DNA of 22,865 bases from IMG/VR virus record IMGVR_UViG_3300035698_010789, positions 1-22,865 of that record; one strand, given 5' to 3'. This document shows, in pieces, positions 4,700 to 19,272 of this stretch (position 1 is the first letter of the stretch; each line of letters starts with the position of its first letter). The stretch is from a virus. The notes beneath the pieces are model-generated. The model had not been told where the DNA came from and searched no databases. It saw only the letters and a list, made by a program, of their open reading frames with translations. Both the position numbers and the translations under genes were made by a program.

Positions 4700-6412
4700 A
4701 TGTTAAGAGAATGGATCGTTACTCTTTATAATCGTGAAGATCTGGACGATTTTTACGAAGATATGCAAACGCCAGGTGGAAATTTATATATTCCAGACAG
4801 AGCTGTTGATGTTGCCAAGCAAAGACCTATAAGCAGAAATACTCACTACATGTTAACTGACGAAGAAGCAGAAACGATACGCCAAGACGAAAGAGTTTGG
4901 GGAGTTGAACTCCTTGAGCTTTTAGAACTATCAACTCGGCCGGCTGGATATAAAATTGAAAATGGTTTGTTTGCTAAAGATTGGGGTGCAGGTGGGCCAC
5001 CATACACTTCTGATACTGATATAAACTGGGGATTTTTAAGACAAACCGAATCTTCAAACAGATCTAACTGGGGAGATAACGGTACGTCAGTAATAACAGA
5101 TGATGTAACAATAACCGCGTCTGGGAGGAATGTTGATGTAGTTATTTTTGATGGGCACATAGATCCAAATCACCCAGAATTTGCTGCCAACTCAGATGGC
5201 TCTGGCGGATCGAGAATTAATCAATATAACTGGTTTCAAAATAACATAGGATTTGGAACTGGCACATACACTTATACACCGTATGTTGATTCTAGTAACG
5301 CTGGAAGAACTAGCGATAATGATCATGGTGTTCACGTGGGCGGAACCGTAGCGGGGAATACTCAAGGTTGGGCTCGAGACGCCAATATATACAATATAAG
5401 TATATATGGAACAAATCCAAGTTTTGGTACTCTTGGTCTAGACTCTTCAACTTATTGGGATTACGTAAGAGCTTGGCATAATAATAAACCAATTAATCCA
5501 GTGACTGGAAGGAAAAATCCTACTGTTACAAATCATAGTTACGGGTCAGCAATTACATACAATACCGGTTCTTTTGGGGCGGTGACTTCAGCAACTTTTC
5601 GTGGTGTAACGTACTCACCAGGAAGAGCACTAACCGTCGCAGAGCTGCAAGCGCGAGGTTTCTTTACAAATGACACTTCACCCGGACCGATCCCATATTA
5701 TTCTACATCAAGAACTTCAGATTTCGAAGATGCAATAAACGATGGCATAATTACGATGTCGGCCGCTGGCAATGAATCATGGAAAATAGTTAATTCATCA
5801 GACCAAGATTATAATAATTCGTTTCTTGCAGCATTTAACGGAAGTACTTTTTCATGGTGGTTACATCGTGGAAACGGTGGCGGTGCTGGCATCGCTCTTA
5901 ATATAACTGTTGGCGCCGTTGGAATTAATAAAGAAGATTATAAAGGTAATTTTAGTAATTGTGGTAGCCAAGTAGATATATTTGCCGCAGGTACTGCAAT
6001 ACAGAGTTCCCTTCATACCGCTTCCGGTACTGCCGGATCATCTGTCTATGACGCAAGAAACAATGCTTACTACCTTGGAAAGTACCAAGGAACTAGTATG
6101 GCTACTCCTCAAGTGTGTGGCATGCTTGCATGCCTTGCTGAGCATTGGCCCAATATGACTCAGACAGAATCAATTCAGTGGCTCGTAGATTTTTGTAACG
6201 AAAATCAAATGGGTGATACAGGCGAAGACGATCCCATGGAAGTTTTAAGTCTTCAAGGGGCGCCAAACAAGTTTGCTAGATGGGCAAATCAAAGACCGAT
6301 AAATGGGGGAACGTTTCCAACAAGAAACTTTAGGCCGCGAACGGTTGATGGAGATCCTGTTTATTATGGAAGAAGAGTTTATCCGCGACCAAGGATACGA
6401 CGAAGAGGTTAA
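4700..6412 (+). CDS. Subtilisin-family (S8) serine protease
   Basis: A 570-residue protein with the subtilase catalytic set: Asp151 in VVIFDGHID, His209 in DHGVHVGGTVAG, the oxyanion Asn358 in SAAGNES, and Ser466 in GTSMATP. Residues 1-~100 are a non-catalytic N-terminal region containing LTDEEAETIRQDERVWGVE, which resembles an inhibitor-type propeptide. The last ~20 residues are very basic (RRVYPRPRIRRRG). No signal peptide is visible, so it probably works in the virion or the host cytoplasm rather than being secreted. An SD-like AGAGG (4687-4691) sits 8 nt before the ATG, and the fibre gene stops 3 nt upstream, so the two are probably co-transcribed. The family call is firm. Its target (fibre processing, host surface protein or virion maturation) is inference. 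Confidence 0.93.
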   Translation: MLREWIVTLYNREDLDDFYEDMQTPGGNLYIPDRAVDVAKQRPISRNTHYMLTDEEAETIRQDERVWGVELLELLELSTRPAGYKIENGLFAKDWGAGGPPYTSDTDINWGFLRQTESSNRSNWGDNGTSVITDDVTITASGRNVDVVIFDGHIDPNHPEFAANSDGSGGSRINQYNWFQNNIGFGTGTYTYTPYVDSSNAGRTSDNDHGVHVGGTVAGNTQGWARDANIYNISIYGTNPSFGTLGLDSSTYWDYVRAWHNNKPINPVTGRKNPTVTNHSYGSAITYNTGSFGAVTSATFRGVTYSPGRALTVAELQARGFFTNDTSPGPIPYYSTSRTSDFEDAINDGIITMSAAGNESWKIVNSSDQDYNNSFLAAFNGSTFSWWLHRGNGGGAGIALNITVGAVGINKEDYKGNFSNCGSQVDIFAAGTAIQSSLHTASGTAGSSVYDARNNAYYLGKYQGTSMATPQVCGMLACLAEHWPNMTQTESIQWLVDFCNENQMGDTGEDDPMEVLSLQGAPNKFARWANQRPINGGTFPTRNFRPRTVDGDPVYYGRRVYPRPRIRRRG

Positions 6413-8300: not shown

Positions 8301-8321
8301 TATTATAGTAGGAGAAGATAA

Positions 8322-8627
8322 ATTTTAATACGATATATAGTAGCTGAAGAGGAACTTGGCGTTTTTCTAGGTGCTTTTAAAAACCAAGGTGTTTTTGCAA
8401 AAACAGATATATTCGGTATATCAAAAGCTTTTAGCTTTAATTCTAAAGAAGATGCTAAAGAATTCATAAGTGATTACGCTGGTGATAATAACGGCAGTTG
8501 GTCAGTTATTGGAATAAAAACCAACAACAAATACGTTGATGTTATTGATCTTATAAAAAACGGTCATTCAAAATATACTCATGGAATGATAGATTCCATG
8601 CACATGTATTCTACAGAGCTACACTAA
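8322..8627 (+). CDS. Hypothetical protein, 101 aa, apparent AUU start
   Basis: The frame has no ATG, GTG or TTG at its 5' end. An in-frame stop TAA lies at 8319-8321, and the next codons are ATT (8322), TTA and ATA (8328). A perfect AGGAG (8310-8314) is 7 nt from the ATT, the ideal spacing, so I choose AUU as start. ATA at 8328 is the alternative. The product reads as a normal soluble protein (IRYIVAEEELGVFLGAFKNQ..., later NNGSWSVIGIKTNNKYVDV), with coding-like composition up to a clean TAA. The first in-frame ATG lies near the 3' end (8583) and would leave only ~15 residues. It could otherwise be a 5'-truncated remnant. No family is recognised. Confidence 0.6.
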   Translation: MLIRYIVAEEELGVFLGAFKNQGVFAKTDIFGISKAFSFNSKEDAKEFISDYAGDNNGSWSVIGIKTNNKYVDVIDLIKNGHSKYTHGMIDSMHMYSTELH

Positions 8628-8654
8628 TTTTTATATTTAATTTCATTTTATCTA

Positions 8655-8683
8655 TTGACATTTCGTTTAGAATCAGTTATATT
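8655..8683 (+). promoter_or_regulatory. Sigma70-type (early) promoter, leader copy B
   Basis: TTGACA at 8655-8660, a 17-nt spacer and TATATT at 8678-8683. It is followed by a leader almost identical to that of the gene at 7211, including AACARATGAAAAGGAATA. The unrelated proteins behind the two copies show that the promoter-leader unit itself was duplicated. Confidence 0.85.
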
Positions 8684-8710
8684 GATATTAACAGATGAAA
8701 AGGAATACAC

Positions 8711-8890
8711 ATGCAATCTTATACTATAAAAGCATACGTTTGGAAGAATGGAGCTGAAGAACTGGTTGAATGGGCGTCTGGATTTGGACACCGTCAAGCG
8801 GATCAATATTTTAAAGCTCTTCGTGCTACCAAAGATTTTGCTAAAATTGAAATGACTATGATAGATAAAAATGAAATTAAATCAAATTAA
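8711..8890 (+). CDS. Small hypothetical protein, 59 aa
   Basis: ATG 8711 lies behind AAAAGGAAT and a strong promoter and reads 59 codons to TAA. The sequence begins MQSYTIKAYVWKNGAEELVEW and contains FGHRQADQYFKALRATKDF. It is a short alpha/beta-like soluble protein with a mix of acidic and basic residues. It matches no family I know. The duplicated leader and tight fit between two promoters (8655 and 8894) support it as a real early gene. Small phage early proteins of this kind often inhibit host enzymes, but nothing here shows a target. Confidence 0.7.
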   Translation: MQSYTIKAYVWKNGAEELVEWASGFGHRQADQYFKALRATKDFAKIEMTMIDKNEIKSN

Positions 8891-8893
8891 CTA

Positions 8894-8922
8894 TTGACAT
8901 TTCGTTTAGAATCGGTTATATT
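8894..8922 (+). promoter_or_regulatory. Sigma70-type (early) promoter
   Basis: TTGACA at 8894-8899, a 17-nt spacer and TATATT at 8917-8922. The core is the same as at 7154 and 8655 with one base change in the spacer (CGG for CAG), but the downstream leader is different. It drives the DUF932 gene. Confidence 0.85.
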
Positions 8923-8957
8923 AATTATATCAAAACAAACAAACTAGGAATTATATT

Positions 8958-9911
8958 ATGTCACATGAATTAGAAATGGTTAACGGCGAAGCACAAATGG
9001 CTTACCGCTCTTCTCAAGGTAAGCCTTGGCACGGTCTTGGTACACCAGTATCAGACGATATGTCTCCACAACAAATGATGCAAGCTGCTGGTTTAGATTG
9101 GGGTGTTGAAAAAGTTGACACGTTTATTCGTTATAACGGTGATAACGTTGCAACAGGCCAACAAGCATTGGTACGTGATACTGATGGGAAAATCTTAACA
9201 CAAGTTGGCCAAGGCTGGAATCCTGTTCAAAACGCTGCGGCGTTTGAGTTCTTTAATGATTTTGTTTCCGCCGGCGACATGCAAATGGATACAGCTGGTT
9301 CTCTAAAGGATGGCCGTTTGGTTTGGGCTTTAGCTGATGTAAAAGATGGCTTTTCGTTGTTTAACGGTGACGAAGTAAAAGGCTACTTGCTATTTTCCAA
9401 CCCTCACATTTACGGAAAATCTATTGATATTAAGTTTGTAATGGAACGTGTTGTTTGCAATAACACTTTGTCTGTTGCACTGAACGAGGCAGGTCAACCA
9501 TCTGTCCGTGTCAATCATCGCTCAGTATTTAATCCTGATAGCGTCAAGGAAATTCTTGGCTTGGGTCACAATAAGGTCGAAAAGTTTAAAGAAGCTGCGG
9601 AATTCCTTGGCTCAAAACGTTACACCGACGATCAGCTTACTCAGTTCTTTGGAGTTGTTTTTGGCAAATCAACAAAAGAAAAAGAAACACTTGCTCGTAA
9701 TGCTAAAGAAGCAATGGAAATCGTTGAAAACCAGCCAGGCGATCATTTTGTACCAGGTACTTGGTGGAATGCGTATAACGCGGTTACTTACATGACAGAC
9801 CACAAGCTAGGTCGTTCAGCAGATACACGAATGGCTTCTGCATGGTTTGGAGGTAACGCTAAGCGTAAGGTTGATGCGTTGGATTTGGCACTGTCTATGG
9901 CAGATGCATAA
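8958..9911 (+). CDS. DUF932 / phage-plasmid-like protein (TIGR03299 type)
   Basis: A 317-residue protein recognised by its opening MSHELEMVNGEAQMAYRSSQ, then KPWHGLGTPV, with WGVEKVDTFIRY, the long conserved middle (VGQGWNPVQNAAAFEFFNDF) and VCNNTLSVALNE. Length and order fit the DUF932 family found on phages and plasmids. The biochemical function is not established; relatives are sometimes suggested to act in nucleic-acid metabolism. It has its own strong promoter and a ~35-nt leader, with AGGAAT upstream of the ATG. An 11-bp hairpin follows at 9937, so it is probably a monocistronic early gene. Confidence 0.88.
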   Translation: MSHELEMVNGEAQMAYRSSQGKPWHGLGTPVSDDMSPQQMMQAAGLDWGVEKVDTFIRYNGDNVATGQQALVRDTDGKILTQVGQGWNPVQNAAAFEFFNDFVSAGDMQMDTAGSLKDGRLVWALADVKDGFSLFNGDEVKGYLLFSNPHIYGKSIDIKFVMERVVCNNTLSVALNEAGQPSVRVNHRSVFNPDSVKEILGLGHNKVEKFKEAAEFLGSKRYTDDQLTQFFGVVFGKSTKEKETLARNAKEAMEIVENQPGDHFVPGTWWNAYNAVTYMTDHKLGRSADTRMASAWFGGNAKRKVDALDLALSMADA

Positions 9912-9936: not shown

Positions 9937-9964
9937 CATGGAGTAGCCTCAAAGCTACTCCATG
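9937..9964 (+). terminator. 11-bp perfect hairpin after DUF932 gene
   Basis: CATGGAGTAGC (9937-9947), six-base loop, GCTACTCCATG (9954-9964). The stem is perfect. It is followed only by TTCTAATAAAA, so the U-tract is weak. It may be an inefficient terminator or an mRNA 3'-end stabiliser separating the early block from the hemA row. The stretch 9912-10060 has no gene. Confidence 0.5.
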
Positions 9965-10011: not shown

Positions 10012-10019
10012 AATAAATA
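10012..10019 (+). promoter_or_regulatory. Possible late promoter (AATAAATA) for hemA row
   Basis: One mismatch from the TATAAATA box that precedes the minus-strand late genes, and located ~42 nt before the hemA ATG, the usual distance here. The same variant precedes the tail-tube gene. A TTGACA (10038-10043) is also present but has no -10 box in range before the start codon. The region is A+T-rich, so chance is possible. Confidence 0.4.
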
Positions 10020-10060: not shown

Positions 10061-11260
10061 ATGGAATATTTAGAATACTTTAAAAACACAATTAAAGACT
10101 TTAGAGATGATGGTCGTTATAGAGTTTTTAACGATATATTGAGAGAAAGAGGCAAATTCCCACGTTCAGTGTGGTATGGTAAATATGCTCCTAAAAATAT
10201 AATTAATTGGTGTTCTAATGACTATTTAGGTATGGGTCAAAATAAGCATGTTATTGATTCTATGCATACAGCGTTGAATCAAACGGGCGCTGGTTCTGGT
10301 GGTACACGAAATATCGGTGGGACTTCTCATTATCACGTAACACTCGAAAGAGAATTGGCTTCTTTACACGACAGAGATGCATCGTTACTGTTCACTAGCG
10401 CATATGTAGCAAACGAATGGACACTCATATCACTTTCGCGTATCATACCTAATATATGTTTCATTTCAGATAATAAAAACCACGCTTCTTTAATCATGGG
10501 TATTAAACACTCAAGATCTGAAAAGAAAATCTTTCAGCATAACAACATGGAAGATTTAGAAACACAGCTAAAACTTACAAAAAAAGAAAAATTAAATCCT
10601 GTAATTGTTTTTGAATCTGTCTATAGTATGGACGGCGACATCGCACCAATAAAAGATATTGTTGCGTTGGCAAAAAAATACAATGCATTAACATATATTG
10701 ATGAAGTACATGCTGTAGGACTATACGGCAAACGCGGTGGTGGATTATGCGAAGAGCTTAATTTGTGGGCAGACGATATTGACATTATTAACGGAACTCT
10801 TGGAAAAGCCTTCGGAGTTCAAGGAGGATATATTGCTGCAAGTAAAGAGATTGTTGATGCTATTAGGTGTGTTGCTAGCGGGTTTATATTTACTACATCA
10901 ACCAGTCCAGTCATTTGCGCCGGGGCCTTGGCATCCATCAGATATCTCCGTGACAATCATAGATTAAGAGTTCAACATCGAGAACGAGTTGCAAAATTAA
11001 AAGAAATGCTAGCTGATGCGAATATACCTATTCATCCAAATGCATGCACTCATATTATTCCAATTATGGTAAATGATGCATTTAAAACAAAAGAAGCAAG
11101 CGATAGACTTCTTAACGAATATGGCATATACATCCAAGCAATTAACAGTCCTACGGTTGAAGCTGGTACCGAAAGATTGAGAGTTGCTCCAACTCCTTAT
11201 CATACAGATGTTATGATGATGGAATTAGTAACAGCATTAAAAACTATATTAAACACATGA
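10061..11260 (+). CDS. hemA: 5-aminolevulinate synthase (ALAS), phage-encoded
   Basis: Condenses glycine and succinyl-CoA to 5-aminolevulinate (PLP enzyme, C4/Shemin pathway), the first step to haem, bacteriochlorophyll and cobalamin. Its 399 residues match the ~400 of bacterial ALAS end to end. Landmarks are the N-terminal GRYRVF (Arg21, succinyl-CoA site), [11 protein letters not shown] (50-60), [10 protein letters not shown] (76-85), [12 protein letters not shown] (185-196), [11 protein letters not shown] (213-223; Asp214 and His217 hold the cofactor), and GTLGKAFG (245-252; Lys249 forms the PLP aldimine). The end has INSPTV and [29 protein letters not shown] and the TERLR..PTP block distinguish ALAS from related oxoamine synthases (KBL, BioF). 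All catalytic residues are kept, so it is probably active. The SD is weak (GTGAG/GAGAA). It overlaps the next gene by ATGA. It was probably acquired from an alphaproteobacterial host. Confidence 0.96.
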
Positions 11261-11637
11261 TAAACAAAAAGGGTGGTTCATTGTTTTCAAGTAACCCATA
11301 TTCTGCTTCCATAAACGCGTTGTTACAAGCAACTGCTTTATTTGCTTCGTCACAAGGTGTAATCTGGGCAATGTATCCAATCATGGCAATGCTATGTTAT
11401 ATTGGATTTATGCAATCCATCGCCGCCGCTAGCCTATTTTCAGGCTTTATCGAAGGAAGCACTGAAAACGAAGATCCTAACTACAGCATTTCAATATTAG
11501 TAGCGATTTTATATTTAGTATCTTCTTATCATGTATATACTCTAGGGTATGGCGTTATCGCCGGCATTATGTTTACACATGCTGTAATATTTTTAATTAC
11601 GAATATACTTGGTGTCTTGAAAGAGTATAAGGATTAG
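11257..11637 (+). CDS. Small multi-pass membrane protein, 126 aa
   Basis: Not recognised. Hydrophobic segments at residues ~20-38 ([20 protein letters not shown]), ~39-60 ([20 protein letters not shown]), ~78-93 ([13 protein letters not shown]) and ~98-120 ([20 protein letters not shown]) predict three or four inner-membrane helices. A short acidic loop [10 protein letters not shown] lies between the second and third. The ATG overlaps the hemA stop (ATGA), so translation is probably coupled to ALAS. The kinase gene follows after 2 nt. Position suggests a membrane partner of the cassette, such as a transporter-like or scaffold protein, but no sequence motif supports a specific role. Confidence 0.75.
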
Positions 11638-11639
11638 CA

Positions 11640-12074
11640 ATGAAAATATTAATCATGGGTCTACCAGGATCCGGTAAAACATGGCTAGCTGAAAGACTGC
11701 AAAAGCATCTAAGCTGCGCATGGTATAATGCTGATGAAATTCGTAAAATGGCTAACGACTGGGAATTTACAGACTTAGCTCGGTTTCGTCAAGCAAATCG
11801 AATGGCTGTACTTGCAGACACGGAAGTATTGTTTGATCGTGTAGTAATCTGCGATTTTGTCTGTCCTACGAATACCCTTAGAAATGTATTTAACGCGGAC
11901 TATACTGTATGGATGGACACTATTAATACAGGCCAATTTGAAGATACTAATAAAGTGTTCGAAAAACCAAACTTGTCTAGTGTAAATTATCACGTTTCAA
12001 GATGGTTTGATAACACTGATGAAACTTTAGCAGACGCTATTCATCGGCATATAAGGTTAGAACAGAATGTTTAA
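11640..12074 (+). CDS. P-loop kinase resembling adenylylsulfate kinase
   Basis: A 144-residue protein with a Walker A motif GLPGSGKT (residues 7-14), then WYNADEIRKMANDWEF, resembling the LDGDNVR...L..DLGF region of CysC. It also has DLARFRQANRMAVLAD (like DR.ENIRR...A.L) and VVICDFVCPTNTLRN (like ..V.FISP....R). The C-terminus is short and departs from CysC after VWMDT. CysC phosphorylates adenylylsulfate to PAPS, but phage homologues are often smaller and their substrate is unproven, so other nucleotide or sugar-nucleotide substrates are possible. It overlaps the nucleotidyltransferase gene by 8 nt, implying a joint pathway. Confidence 0.8.
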   Translation: MKILIMGLPGSGKTWLAERLQKHLSCAWYNADEIRKMANDWEFTDLARFRQANRMAVLADTEVLFDRVVICDFVCPTNTLRNVFNADYTVWMDTINTGQFEDTNKVFEKPNLSSVNYHVSRWFDNTDETLADAIHRHIRLEQNV

Positions 12075-12477
12075 TTACCAAGCTCCAACTACTATGCTGC
12101 TTGGGCGGTGGCAACCTTGGCACAATGGACATACAGAACTGTTCAGACGCGCGTTAGCCGAAACAGGCCAAGTATGTATTCAAGTACGAAACGTCAGTTT
12201 TATTTTAGGCGAAGATGCAGGTGGCGGCCGCACAGTAACACAGGACGATAATCCGTTTAGTTATGATTATGTAGTAGATAGCATTGAAGATGGATTGCAT
12301 GATGCGGGTTTTACACGTGGCGTAGAATATATTATAATGCAAGTACCAAACATTGTCGATATTAGTTATGGTAGAGGTGTGGGATATACCTTGACAGAAC
12401 ACAACTTAGGTGATACAATACATAGTATAAGCGCAACAAAAATTAGAAAACAAATGAGAGAAGAAGGAATATTATGA
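12067..12477 (+). CDS. HxGH nucleotidyltransferase (NMN adenylyl-/cytidylyltransferase-like)
   Basis: A 136-residue protein of the HIGH-type nucleotidyltransferase superfamily. LLGRWQPWHNGHTEL contains the T/H-x-G-H nucleotide-binding motif (His19-Asn-Gly-His22), and ISATKIRKQM (121-130) is the C-terminal ISxTxIR motif. GRWQPWHNGH most resembles the GRFQPxHxGH form of NadM/NadR NMN adenylyltransferases. The size is near the small cytidylyltransferases (TagD-like, ~130). Transfers a nucleotidyl group from NTP to a phosphorylated acceptor; whether the product is NAD or a CDP/ADP-activated compound is not decidable here. Its start lies inside the kinase gene and its stop overlaps the dsbA-like gene (ATGA), so the three are translationally linked. 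Confidence 0.85.
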   Translation: MFNYQAPTTMLLGRWQPWHNGHTELFRRALAETGQVCIQVRNVSFILGEDAGGGRTVTQDDNPFSYDYVVDSIEDGLHDAGFTRGVEYIIMQVPNIVDISYGRGVGYTLTEHNLGDTIHSISATKIRKQMREEGIL

Positions 12478-12803
12478 ATACCAAAGTAACACAAACTTTG
12501 CCATCTGTTATTACAAATAATGATCGTAAAGTTATTCAAAATGCGTTAAAAGAAATGTCAGATTCTATGACAAGAATTTCAGCTGAGAAAGATCTACAAA
12601 AAGAAATTTCAGAACAAATGGTTGAAAAACTAAACGTGCCAAAACGTGAATTCAATAGACTTGCTAAAATTTTTCATGCTTCTAATCTCATGGAAGAAGC
12701 CGCGAGGAATGAAGAATTCATGGAATTTGCAGAAGCTGTTATGGCCCCGGTTTCTAATAGAATTGAAGATAATAACAAATTACCCGAAGTTGAAATTGTA
12801 TGA
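12474..12803 (+). CDS. dsbA: DsbA-like late-transcription dsDNA-binding protein
   Basis: A 109-residue charged protein. Residues ~38-88 (ISAEKDLQKEISEQMVEKLN, then VPKREFNRLAKIFHASN) align with T4 DsbA (KISGYNELIKDIRIRAKDEL, then GVDGKMFNRLLALYHKDN). Both have the same spacing to a following acidic helix. T4 DsbA (89 aa) binds double-stranded DNA at late promoters and helps late transcription. This protein has extra N- and C-terminal tails of about 15-20 residues. It overlaps both neighbours by ATGA (12474 and 12800). In T4, dsbA lies next to gene 33, whereas here it ends a metabolic row. The T4 comparison is from memory of the family; confirmation needs a profile search. Confidence 0.7.
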   Translation: MNTKVTQTLPSVITNNDRKVIQNALKEMSDSMTRISAEKDLQKEISEQMVEKLNVPKREFNRLAKIFHASNLMEEAARNEEFMEFAEAVMAPVSNRIEDNNKLPEVEIV

Positions 12804-13306: not shown

Positions 13307-13333
13307 AAAAAAAGGGAGATCCGAAGATCTCCC
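13307..13333 (-). terminator. Intrinsic terminator of the capsid operon (minus strand)
   Basis: Read on the minus strand: GGGAGATC, TTCG loop, GATCTCCC, then seven T (13313 down to 13307). It has an 8-bp perfect stem closed by C-G around UUCG, the very stable C(UUCG)G tetraloop. It lies ~50 nt beyond the gp23 stop. Confidence 0.9.
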
Positions 13334-13353
13334 TAGTATTCGTAAAGAATTGT

Positions 13354-13384
13354 AGAGGAGGGGTTTATCCCCTCTTCTTTTTTT
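13354..13384 (+). terminator. Intrinsic terminator of the hemA-dsbA row (plus strand)
   Basis: AGAGGAGGGG (13354-13363), loop TTTAT, CCCCTCTTCT (13369-13378), then a T run to 13384. The stem is ten pairs with one G-T wobble. It stops plus-strand transcripts before the head genes and ends right at the gp23 stop codon. Confidence 0.88.
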
Positions 13385-13385
13385 A

Positions 13386-14696
13386 TTAGAACAAGTTGCT
13401 TACGCGAACTCTGCGGTAGTATACGTTAGTGTTATCTGTAAGAGCACCTTCACTGCGTGTTGGGCCTGCTGCGAACGGGTTAGCAACCATGCCGTAACGT
13501 GTTTTAAAGCCGATTTTTGGCTGGAAGGAATTCTCACCAACTGCGCGGTACATTTGCAATGGTACGTATGGGCAATAGAAGAGTCCTGCGTCGAATGCAG
13601 AAGAACCTTTATAACCAACAACCAGATAATTGCTACCTGCATATGGATCGATATATACTCTGTAACGACCGTTTAGGATACCTGCGAATGTATTGCCTGT
13701 ATCATCAACGTTAAGTGCGTTGCTGTTAAGAGCTGGAGTATAATCAAGAACACCAGACATCTGAAGTGCCGATGCAACATCGGAAGAACAGATAACGATG
13801 TTACCTTTACCGCGACGAGTTGCTTTTGCAATCGCGTTGGCTTCGATTTCAACTTGGAACATCAAGCCTTTGAATTTCTCAACTGACCAACGACCGTTTG
13901 CGTCAACATCCAAGTCAAACACACCAGCTGATGCAGTAGATGCAGCACCGGTTACGGCTGTGTTATAGATTGTACGAACAACTTCACGGTTGATTTCTGC
14001 GAGGATTTCAGATTGAAGAATGTTTGCAAGCTCAGTTTCTGCGTCAAGACCATGAACAGCACGAAGATCTTGTGCAAGCTCAGTGGTATATTCTGCTTTC
14101 AATGCGCGGCTTTTTGCAGCAACAGTAACTTTTTCGATAGCAAGAGCCATCTCTGCAAAGTTTGTACCGCCACCGTCGCCAAGTGCTTCAGCATCCGCAG
14201 TAGCAAGACCAGTACCAGTTGGGGCTGTTGCGCCTCCACCAGTAGAGCCTGACATTGCGCCTGTACCTGAGAAGTCGGTATCAGCTTCGTTATAAAACGC
14301 TTCTTGTGCAGTGTTACCTGTCATTGCATTCATGTTAGAACGCATTGCGAAGATAAGACCTGTTGGGCCTGTCATTGGCTGTACACCAGCAATGTCGTAT
14401 GCCATCAAGTTTGGCATTGAACGGCGAACCAAGCTGATTAGAACTGGGTCATAACCTGCTGTTGGAGTTGCTGAACCAGAACCAAATCCGCCAGTTCCAG
14501 CTGCGTTTGTTGGAGCTTCTTGTAAAAGCGAAGTCATATTGATTGACTGATCGCCACTTTCTACAAGTGCCTTTTCTGTGTTTTCAAGAAGAGTAGCAGT
14601 AACTGCTTTTCTGTGCTCGTCTTTGATTGTTGCGAAAGATGAGTGCTCAAGAAGAGGACCCCACTTTTCGATTAATGATCTGCTAGATTGACTCAT
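13386..14696 (-). CDS. 23: Major capsid protein gp23
   Basis: A 436-residue T4-family capsid protein. Landmarks are the N-terminal IEKWGPLLEH, then YDPVLISLVRRSMPNLMAYD, GVQPMTGPTGLIFAMRSN, KAEYTTELAQDLRAVHGLDA, the C-terminal YIDPYAGSNYLVVGYKG and GLFYCPYVPLQMYRA, and KTRYGMVANPFA. It is shorter than T4 gp23 (521), as in marine T4-like phages. The first ~60 residues are the scaffold-type delta domain. LLQE|AP at residues 57-62 fits the gp21 cleavage rule (L/I-x-E) and would give a mature chain starting at Ala61. AGGAG lies before the ATG, with an exact late promoter 38 nt upstream and a strong terminator behind. It forms the hexamers of the head shell. Confidence 0.97.
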   Translation of the reverse strand: MSQSSRSLIEKWGPLLEHSSFATIKDEHRKAVTATLLENTEKALVESGDQSINMTSLLQEAPTNAAGTGGFGSGSATPTAGYDPVLISLVRRSMPNLMAYDIAGVQPMTGPTGLIFAMRSNMNAMTGNTAQEAFYNEADTDFSGTGAMSGSTGGGATAPTGTGLATADAEALGDGGGTNFAEMALAIEKVTVAAKSRALKAEYTTELAQDLRAVHGLDAETELANILQSEILAEINREVVRTIYNTAVTGAASTASAGVFDLDVDANGRWSVEKFKGLMFQVEIEANAIAKATRRGKGNIVICSSDVASALQMSGVLDYTPALNSNALNVDDTGNTFAGILNGRYRVYIDPYAGSNYLVVGYKGSSAFDAGLFYCPYVPLQMYRAVGENSFQPKIGFKTRYGMVANPFAAGPTRSEGALTDNTNVYYRRVRVSNLF

Positions 14697-16681: not shown

Positions 16682-17599
16682 TTACATTGCTTCTCTTGCG
16701 AAACCAAGAATTTCTTCAAACCCTGACTTATCTGTCATCGCAGTACTTTGCATTTTCTTACGGTTCGTAGAAGAAAGATCTTTGAACATTTGGTTTAAAA
16801 GATCAGCATCTTGTTTCTTTAGAATAACAGAAGAACCGTCCTTAAATTTTACCATTCCGGTTGCAAACTTTTCGTTTAAGTCTTCGTCAATTTCGGCTTC
16901 TTCGGACTTGTCCCAAGGTGCTTTCTTCAAAGATACTTTACCTTTAGGCTGCACCTTCATTCCTTGAAGAGCTCTTGTAATTGTTTTTTGCGAAATTTTT
17001 ACAGTTTTTTTCGAACTTTTTGCTTCATCAATTTCGGCTTCTTCGCCCATAGACATTACTTCAGCTGTAGCGTAACTATATAATGTTTGCATTTCTTTAG
17101 CAACACCAGCTAATTTGTTTTGGAACCATTCTTCAGGATCTTGTGTTGATTGAACATAACGAGCAATACCCTGTACATTGTGTGACATTGAACGCAACGC
17201 ATTCATCATCATTGGCTTTTCTTCCATTGGGTTTTCAGAAAGCTCAACTTCTTCTTTAGCAATAGCTTTAGAAATAGCTTTGCGGCGCTTATGTAGATAT
17301 TCGTCAGAATCGTCAACATCGCCATCATTGTCAATATCTTTATCTTTACGATCTTTGTGCTTACCTTTAAGGGCTTTTGCATCTACTGGATCTATAGCTT
17401 CGTATACAGATGCATCTTCTCCAGGTGCAAGATCTGCCCTACGCTTGAGTTTAGCTGTCCCAGGTATTTCACCAGTAAACTGATGATCTAAAGCAACAGG
17501 ATGGCCAACTTTAGTTACGATGTGTTTATCCTTAAATGCTTTTTCGTCGCCTGCTTTTGGCTGAGCAACTTCAGATATTAAATTCTTAAAGGTTTTCAT
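16682..17599 (-). CDS. Putative prohead-core protein at the gene 67 position, with EF-hand-like loop
   Basis: A 305-residue, highly charged protein in the place of T4 gene 67 (prohead core, 80 aa) but much larger. Residues 88-99 (DIDNDGDVDDSD) form a perfect EF-hand/dockerin-type calcium loop, followed by EYLHKRRKAISKAIAKEE. Two copies of EEAEIDE (residues 186-192, 233-239) contain I-D-E, matching the gp21 cleavage rule, so the protein may be cut during maturation. The start overlaps the portal stop (ATGA). It has an upstream exact late promoter and a weak SD (AAGAAAG). I recall similar D-I-D-N-D-G-D-V-D proteins in this spot in other marine T4-like phages. The core-protein role is inferred from position and cleavage sites. 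Confidence 0.75.
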   Translation of the reverse strand: MKTFKNLISEVAQPKAGDEKAFKDKHIVTKVGHPVALDHQFTGEIPGTAKLKRRADLAPGEDASVYEAIDPVDAKALKGKHKDRKDKDIDNDGDVDDSDEYLHKRRKAISKAIAKEEVELSENPMEEKPMMMNALRSMSHNVQGIARYVQSTQDPEEWFQNKLAGVAKEMQTLYSYATAEVMSMGEEAEIDEAKSSKKTVKISQKTITRALQGMKVQPKGKVSLKKAPWDKSEEAEIDEDLNEKFATGMVKFKDGSSVILKKQDADLLNQMFKDLSSTNRKKMQSTAMTDKSGFEEILGFAREAM

Positions 17600-19272
17600 T
17601 TTTGAGGCTTTCTTTTAAATGATTTTGTTTTATTTATAACTTTAAGTGATTCTTCAGCATCGATTTCGGTATTATCATCTGCTGGCTCATCATCTGTAGG
17701 CTCTTGTTCTGAATCATCAAAATCGTCTTCTGCATCCATGCCCGGATCGTCTGGGTCATTGTATAGACCAGCCGATCTTTCTTGATCAATTTGCAGTTGC
17801 ATTTCGCGCATTTCATCGTCAGTCATGAATAGAACATTTTTGGTAATCCATTGTCTTGAATAATATTTACCTACTTGTTCTTCCATATCTCTTAACGTTG
17901 TTATTTTTTCGCGTAGAATTTCAGTCTGTTTTAATTCTTCAAAATAGTTATCTTTCATAAAGTCATAACGTATTTTGTTTTTAATATCGCCCCACTCTTC
18001 AGGATCTAAAACACCTTTTAAGATTAATTGCTTTTCAAGTAGAGAATCAAATAAACCTGAGAATCTGTTTCTTAATCTACGAATAAACTTACTAAACTTT
18101 ATTTCATCACGCGTCATTTCAGAAACACGGCCCATACTATACATATTTTCTGGCTCTAATCTAGAAACAGGAACTTTTAGCGATTTATATAATTTTCTTT
18201 GGAAATACGAAAGATTTTCATCACCACTTAGCGCTGCAGCATTACCACCAGCTAAAATATCCACTTCTGTAGATCTTTCTCCACCTCGGCGAGGAAACCA
18301 AAAATCTTCAGTCATAGTCATAAACTTACGACCATCTGTGATATCGCCACTATCTGAATCATACTGCAGTTTATTTTTATGGCGAGTCATCATGTCATGT
18401 AAGTATTGTTCAGCTTTTGCTTTTGGCAACTGACCTACATCGATATAAAATATTCTTCTTTCAGGAGCTCTTGTAATTGTATAAATTACAGTAGCATCTT
18501 CCAACATACGAAGTTGGTTTAACGGTTTAATAGCAGGATGTAAATACGAAAGAATTAGCGAATTATTTTCGTTCATATACCCAGAAGTTATTCTTGCTAC
18601 TGAATCTTTTGCAATTCTATAACCCTGAACAGTTTGCCCAGATGAAACATTGGAACTAACCGCTTTGGATCCAAACCCTGAATCGGAATAAAGATAATAT
18701 TCTTTCTTAACTTTTTTCAAAGGAATTCCAGAATGAGGATCTTTTTGTTTTTCATCCATTTCTTTAATAAGACGAAGTTTCCGCGGATCTATATAACGAA
18801 CTTCTTTTATGCCATCTTTTAAGTTTTCATTGTCTATGATAACATGATAATTTAATCTGCCATCTACGTAAAACTTTTGAAAAATGTCATATCCATAATT
18901 TGAAAAGTCAAGAAAACGAAGAATTTCTTCAAATTCCTCTATTATTCTATCTTTTACTTTGTCTGGTAAATTCGTATCATCTAAAACAACTTCAACAGCG
19001 TTTTCATGCGAATCAATGTTTATAGCTTCGTTAATAACTTCATCAACGGCCTGTGAAATTTCGGGCTGCAACATCATACCACGGTATTTTGTCACTAATT
19101 CGCCTTCAGACTTGGCATCGCCATCCATATTAATAGAAATACCATAGGATCCCCCGAGAGAGTTTCCTATGGTAATTGCGCCTTCGTCGTTAGTCGGTTC
19201 TACAAAAGAAACCGCAATGTCTTCATCAGCGCCGCCGATATCTTTTTTTATTTCAAAGCCAAAAATTCGCAT
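17596..19272 (-). CDS. 20: Portal protein gp20
   Basis: A 558-residue T4-family portal (T4 gp20 is 524). Family landmarks: VEVVLDDTNLPDKVKDRIIE, YIDPRKLRLIKE, IKPLNQLRMLEDATVIYTIT followed by RAPERRIFYIDVGQLPKAKA, DFWFPRRGGERSTEVDILAG, SYFQRKLYKSLKVPVSRLEP, and EMTRDEIKFSKFIRRLRNRF. The C-terminus is a long acidic tail (DDFDDSEQEPTDDEPADDNT). Forms the dodecameric gate through which gp17 pumps DNA and where the neck attaches. AGGAT stands before the ATG. No exact late box is in the 20-nt gap to gp19, so it is probably transcribed with gp19. Confidence 0.97.
   Translation of the reverse strand: MRIFGFEIKKDIGGADEDIAVSFVEPTNDEGAITIGNSLGGSYGISINMDGDAKSEGELVTKYRGMMLQPEISQAVDEVINEAINIDSHENAVEVVLDDTNLPDKVKDRIIEEFEEILRFLDFSNYGYDIFQKFYVDGRLNYHVIIDNENLKDGIKEVRYIDPRKLRLIKEMDEKQKDPHSGIPLKKVKKEYYLYSDSGFGSKAVSSNVSSGQTVQGYRIAKDSVARITSGYMNENNSLILSYLHPAIKPLNQLRMLEDATVIYTITRAPERRIFYIDVGQLPKAKAEQYLHDMMTRHKNKLQYDSDSGDITDGRKFMTMTEDFWFPRRGGERSTEVDILAGGNAAALSGDENLSYFQRKLYKSLKVPVSRLEPENMYSMGRVSEMTRDEIKFSKFIRRLRNRFSGLFDSLLEKQLILKGVLDPEEWGDIKNKIRYDFMKDNYFEELKQTEILREKITTLRDMEEQVGKYYSRQWITKNVLFMTDDEMREMQLQIDQERSAGLYNDPDDPGMDAEDDFDDSEQEPTDDEPADDNTEIDAEESLKVINKTKSFKRKPQK
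17631..17638 (-). promoter_or_regulatory. T4-type late promoter for the gene 67-position protein
   Basis: TATAAATA on the minus strand, 32 nt before the start at 17599. It lies inside the 3' end of the portal coding sequence. Confidence 0.75.

Follow-up and report, generated by a model that had tools for sequence, protein, structure and literature searches.

5-Aminolevulinate synthase (ALAS) starts haem synthesis in alphaproteobacteria. A gene for this enzyme in a viral contig therefore raises the question whether its product is a genuine ALAS, whether the gene belongs to the phage, and what it might contribute to infection. The analyzed record, the whole of which we call the window, is a linear virus contig of 22,865 bases (Table 1). 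An earlier note on this DNA described a full-length ALAS with an intact active site encoded among phage genes, and mentioned earlier reports of ALAS in aquatic phage genomes. Such reports exist: viral alaS genes (valaS) have been described in marine and freshwater phages, either alone or together with hemO and pcyA/X, and one freshwater-phage valaS complements an E. coli ALA auxotroph, with ALA formation demonstrated (Wegner et al. 2024, PMC11480375). Because valaS was described and shown to work in 2024, the window ALAS is not new in kind; it belongs to the same enzyme family and viral clade as the valaS of that study, in which the enzyme of phage CB_2 was tested, and also has the active-site residues and the setting in an aquatic myovirus in common with it; stand-alone copies have already been described there. 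The window nevertheless provides a clean example of a virus, here a T4-type phage with rhizobial phages among its relatives, that carries the gene for the first committed step of haem synthesis. The additions to what was known are the pairing of viral ALAS with DUF454, a relative (L005) with hemO, bilin reductase and DUF454 genes, a viral-clade ALAS in the bacterium Neisseriaceae PsAf, and the probable phage contigs in the Water_Bin34 bin.

Table 1. Features of the window around alaS, and the DUF454 genes of other viral loci
Feature	Position	Strand	Basis or remark
Promoter-like TTGACA-17-TATATT site preceding the DUF932 gene and alaS	8894..8922	+	repeat family
Phage/plasmid-like protein (DUF932 / TIGR03299), encoded before alaS	8958..9911	+	profile matches
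Hairpin CATGGAGTAGC-CTCAAA-GCTACTCCATG in the gap from the DUF932 gene to alaS	9938..9964	+	sequence inspection
AATAAATA, which fits the late-promoter motif of S-PM2; 41 bases upstream of the alaS start	10012..10019	+	weak evidence
valaS, 5-aminolevulinate synthase, intact	10061..11260	+	ATG start, 399 aa; TIGR01821, tree, model, dN/dS
Small membrane protein with three hydrophobic peaks; its gene overlaps the stop codon of alaS	11257..11637	+	matches no family
P-loop kinase	11640..12074	+	matches N-terminal half of phrog_10255
Nucleotidyltransferase (NMNAT-like)	12067..12477	+	matches C-terminal half of phrog_10255
T4 DsbA-like transcription regulator	12474..12803	+	PF11126, phrog_639
Major capsid protein gp23	13386..14696	-	phrog_138; 67% identity to Sinorhizobium phages
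Portal protein gp20	17596..19272	-	phrog_213; 53% to Sinorhizobium phages
Large terminase subunit, incomplete at the contig end	21765..22865	-	58-59% to Sinorhizobium phages phiN3, phiM19, phiM7, phiM12
DUF454/YbaN gene of viral loci	L008-L080 (downstream of alaS), L171, L263:5389-5808		

The predicted product of alaS is a full-length ALAS, as the earlier note had claimed: it matches the TIGR01821 profile with 551.3 bits (E 1.2e-165), above the curated cut-off of 338.55, whereas the bioF and KBL models yield 313 bits (cut-off 426) and 252 bits (cut-off 493), respectively, and serine palmitoyltransferase and other alpha-oxoamine synthase models also match below their cut-offs. When numbered by alignment with the Rhodobacter capsulatus enzyme (2bwn), R21, T82, N84, S136, H141, S189, D214, H217, T246, K249, T365 and R374 are the same as in that ALAS, and nearly all of them are invariant across an alignment of 39 viral and 27 bacterial ALAS. 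The PLP lysine (K249), the Asp/His pair (D214, H217) and the glycine- and succinyl-CoA-binding residues (R21, T82, N84, S136, T365, R374) are all present. K249, D214, H217, R21 and R374, which lie at the positions or in the sequence blocks that the note had named for an intact active site, are invariant in all aligned viral (one of which ends before R372/R374) and bacterial ALAS. The ALAS-specific residues R21, T82, N84 and S136 differ or are gapped in two KBL/BioF-like outgroup sequences. An AlphaFold model built from 68 sequences (pLDDT 94.6; it supersedes a model from 11 sequences with a pLDDT of 68) finds its best PDB matches in the bacterial ALAS (HemA) of Rhodopseudomonas palustris (7x98) and R. 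capsulatus (2bwn), with a TM-score of 0.97 at 1.2-1.3 Å, 48-51% sequence identity and all catalytic residues shared.

In a maximum-likelihood tree, the window ALAS is nested within a viral clade (support 100/98). The sister group of this clade is Pelagibacteraceae (100/99), and the KBL/BioF outgroup lies apart, so the phylogeny that the earlier note proposed as a check places the protein with ALAS. The 51 rows of the clade comprise every viral row, Water_Bin34, a further two MAG rows and Neisseriaceae PsAf. The ALAS of the sister group, which is 58-60% identical, is a cellular gene; its flanks, retrieved to 5 kb at most, contain no DUF454 homolog. Where dS is measurable (not saturated), the dN/dS values between the window ALAS and its relatives are 0.06-0.20, showing purifying selection on the close viral copies. 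The search for the same gene in related phage genomes, also proposed in the note, shows that the gene order around alaS is common to contigs L001-L007, the first of which has DNA 99.99% identical to the window over 17 kb. A single IMG/VR scan detected at least 456 viral ALAS loci; the note's description of the gene as rare was thus too strong, and viral ALAS, to judge by the survey, is common, although valaS is far less abundant than phage psbA (Wegner et al., PMC11480375). A search of the phage records collection gave nothing nearer to ALAS than 32-34%; its matches are KBL/BioF and other genes of bacterial type.

These results leave little room for two trivial explanations of the locus. It is hardly credible that the enzyme is another alpha-oxoamine synthase, of the KBL, BioF or serine palmitoyltransferase type: the fold and the PLP lysine are indeed common to both, with KBL structures aligning at a TM-score of ~0.93, but every such model scores below its cut-off, the succinyl-binding residues are of the ALAS type and the tree sets the protein apart from the outgroup, so that this identity was rejected on profile scores, residues and tree. 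A bacterial gene residing in a contaminated or chimeric contig, an idea invited by the metagenomic origin of the sequence, is less probable still, to the point of being negligible: gp23, portal and terminase are encoded on the same 22.9 kb record as alaS, and the recurrence of the gene order in the independent contigs L001-L007 led us to discard this origin.

As the earlier note stated, alaS lies between phage genes: a DUF932/TIGR03299 gene is upstream, and kinase, nucleotidyltransferase and T4-like DsbA genes are downstream. By their profile matches, gp23 (phrog_138), gp20 (phrog_213) and the terminase assign the contig to the T4 superfamily, as a myovirus fragment; from 13386 onward, the gp23, prohead, portal, sheath and terminase genes are all on the minus strand. 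The best matches to the capsid, portal and terminase proteins are from Sinorhizobium phages phiM12/phiN3 (Emdodecavirus), at only 53-67% identity, and these phages are absent from the matches of the whole-collection ALAS search. Hence the structural genes, independently of alaS, point towards phages of alphaproteobacteria. The note had taken ALAS itself to indicate such a host; the host assignment is favored by the capsid, portal and terminase, but the gene alone is no proof, given that a gammaproteobacterial host has been proposed for another valaS phage (Wegner et al., PMC11480375). As separate observations, the two halves of phrog_10255, kinase and nucleotidyltransferase, are represented by separate, slightly overlapping genes at 11640-12477, and a subtilase (Peptidase_S8) gene is located directly 3' of the gene for a 1,564-residue collagen-like tail-fibre protein with GxQ repeats (4700-6412). 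Rfam and tRNA scans of the window produced no matches.

Examination of the other viral loci revealed a recurrent neighbor. In 62 of the 74 viral loci with enough sequence, valaS is followed, on its own strand, by a gene for a DUF454 membrane protein (PF04304, YbaN). Counted from where the alaS match ends, this gene starts at -25 to +300 bases in 38 loci and at 0.8-2.6 kb in the other 24. The count is drawn from the 80 closest of the at least 456 viral ALAS loci, and because these are related to one another, the 62 pairs are not independent events. The main text of Wegner et al. (PMC11480375) does not mention DUF454 beside valaS. The pair is absent from the window (PF04304 matches nothing in G000, nor in G001, a 28 kb contig that is nearly identical), and in L005 the DUF454 gene is ~35 kb from alaS. 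In the clade of the window, the place of DUF454 after alaS is held by an unrelated small membrane gene (11257-11637), which adjoins alaS in this clade only and distinguishes it from the valaS loci of Wegner et al.; we considered whether it could be a divergent DUF454 and rejected this, given a profile score of 2 bits and no Pfam match. Nor is viral DUF454 confined to the vicinity of valaS: 39 of 80 viral DUF454 loci are in other places, in many cases following tail-fibre or PAAR genes, and among the records behind 38 of these 39, three carry ALAS farther off. Bacterial DUF454 is found together with haem oxygenase and TonB domains in the vicinity of T11SS genes (PMC12282271), and in Avibacterium it rises when iron is restricted (PMC7970244). 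We tentatively propose, as a conjecture with somewhat less than an even chance of being correct, that viral ALAS usually forms a two-gene unit with DUF454/YbaN, replaced in the window lineage by the unrelated membrane protein. If so, DUF454, a widespread uncharacterized bacterial family, would act in membrane tetrapyrrole or iron handling. On one valaS-bearing contig (L075:2219-3997), we also noticed an apparent fructose-bisphosphate aldolase and a GAPDH-like gene, judged on their first residues only.

Some bacterial records fall within the viral clade. The ALAS of Neisseriaceae PsAf (L090:4983-6167), a bacterium living in symbiosis with the louse Polyplax serrata (PMC9376444), is nested in this clade, and its placement outside was rejected with a p-AU of 0.02, in a test chosen after the tree had been seen. 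The flanking genes (LptD, patatin, ABC transporters) are bacterial. The draft genome encodes HemB; HemA and HemL gave no match over the cut-off in this incomplete draft. The symbiont apparently runs on a viral-clade ALAS without C5-pathway genes, and the gene was probably transferred from a phage, in which case it would replace the cell's own C5 route. The three ALAS genes of the MAG 'Rhodobacteraceae Water_Bin34' (L086, L087, L152) are a different case: the bin holds nine gp23 matches and one of its ALAS proteins is identical to that of the viral contig L012, so these entries most likely represent misbinned phage contigs. The bacterial exception to which Wegner et al. refer (PMC11480375) may be Water_Bin34.

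What would such a gene do for the phage? The family assignment, residues, model, viral clade and purifying selection uphold the auxiliary metabolic gene reading of the earlier note, as do the complementation by a freshwater-phage valaS and the louse symbiont with HemB and a viral-clade ALAS. On these grounds it is very probable that the T4-superfamily phage carries a working ALAS in this capacity; that this particular copy is active and expressed during infection we infer. The enzyme, a homodimer in its relatives, would hold PLP on Lys249 and join glycine and succinyl-CoA to yield ALA, CoA and CO2, and host enzymes from HemB onward would then convert ALA to haem and other tetrapyrroles during infection. 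The presumed benefit is that tetrapyrrole supply and respiration would be kept going; perhaps ALA would also feed a haem oxygenase and a bilin reductase of the phage itself.

Two other purposes have to be weighed against this one. In the model of Wegner et al., the phage infects a host with the C5 pathway, and ALAS bypasses the glutamyl-tRNA route, sparing charged tRNA-Glu. The proposed gammaproteobacterial host of one valaS phage (PMC11480375) and the symbiont that appears to depend on a viral-clade ALAS are in line with this model, but the capsid, portal and terminase are nearest to those of Sinorhizobium phages and the viral ALAS clade has Pelagibacteraceae as its sister group, each an alphaproteobacterial connection, so for the window phage we consider it rather improbable. 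A somewhat better, though still unlikely, candidate is a route in which ALAS mainly serves bilin and iron metabolism of the phage, from ALA to haem, then to haem oxygenase with release of iron, and on to bilin reductase. Complete and broken hemO-pcyA/X-alaS cassettes are known in phages (Wegner et al. 2024, PMC11480375), and in the nearest long relative, the 201 kb record L005 with an ALAS 85% identical to that of the window, hemO and a bilin reductase gene (FDBR) are side by side ~68 kb from alaS; FDBR is also present in L007. Against this route, neither hemO nor FDBR is found in G001 or seen in the ORF list of the window, a fragment with no cassette partner within its 22.9 kb, and 41 of 50 valaS records, most of them fragments, have no FDBR; many phages seem to carry valaS alone. 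Because L005 has hemO, FDBR and DUF454 far from its alaS, the phage of the window, seen here as a fragment, may carry them too. The general tetrapyrrole supply remains our preferred reading.

With respect to regulation, the window ALAS differs from the R. capsulatus enzyme in the lack of the C-terminal tail that holds Cys400 and in a Lys in place of His342. These two are the proposed haem-feedback residues, and many viral ALAS are without one or both (Wegner et al. 2024, PMC11480375). Only 5 of the 27 aligned bacterial ALAS have His at the position equivalent to 342, and therefore the change is not phage-specific and says little on regulation; we dismissed it as a phage trait. A loss of haem feedback in the window enzyme is conceivable, but only faintly suggested by these differences.

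The intergenic sequences offer some candidate expression signals. Four TTGACA-17-TATATT sites (6419, 7154, 8655, 8894; 0.01 expected) are all on the plus strand and within repeated sequence, none of them directly before alaS. The stretch 8301-8957, 650 bases of low GC without a clear gene, contains two of the promoter-like repeats and has no Rfam match. The hairpin preceding alaS, which is absent from the terminator-scan output, is possibly a terminator or processing site. The late-promoter motif of S-PM2 is NATAAATA (PMC2984593), and the motif nearest to alaS is AATAAATA at 10012; AAATAAATA is also found in L003, L004 and L005, and not in L006 or L007. The T4 late-promoter motif TATAAATA occurs 8 times in the window versus 2.3 expected, with 7 of the 8 on the minus strand and several just 5' of structural genes. 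Given that the TTGACA/TATATT sites are on the plus strand and the TATAAATA sites mostly on the minus strand, the alaS unit is separate from the late structural genes. The terminator scan identified two strong terminator-like hairpins at 13313-13381, between the converging units.
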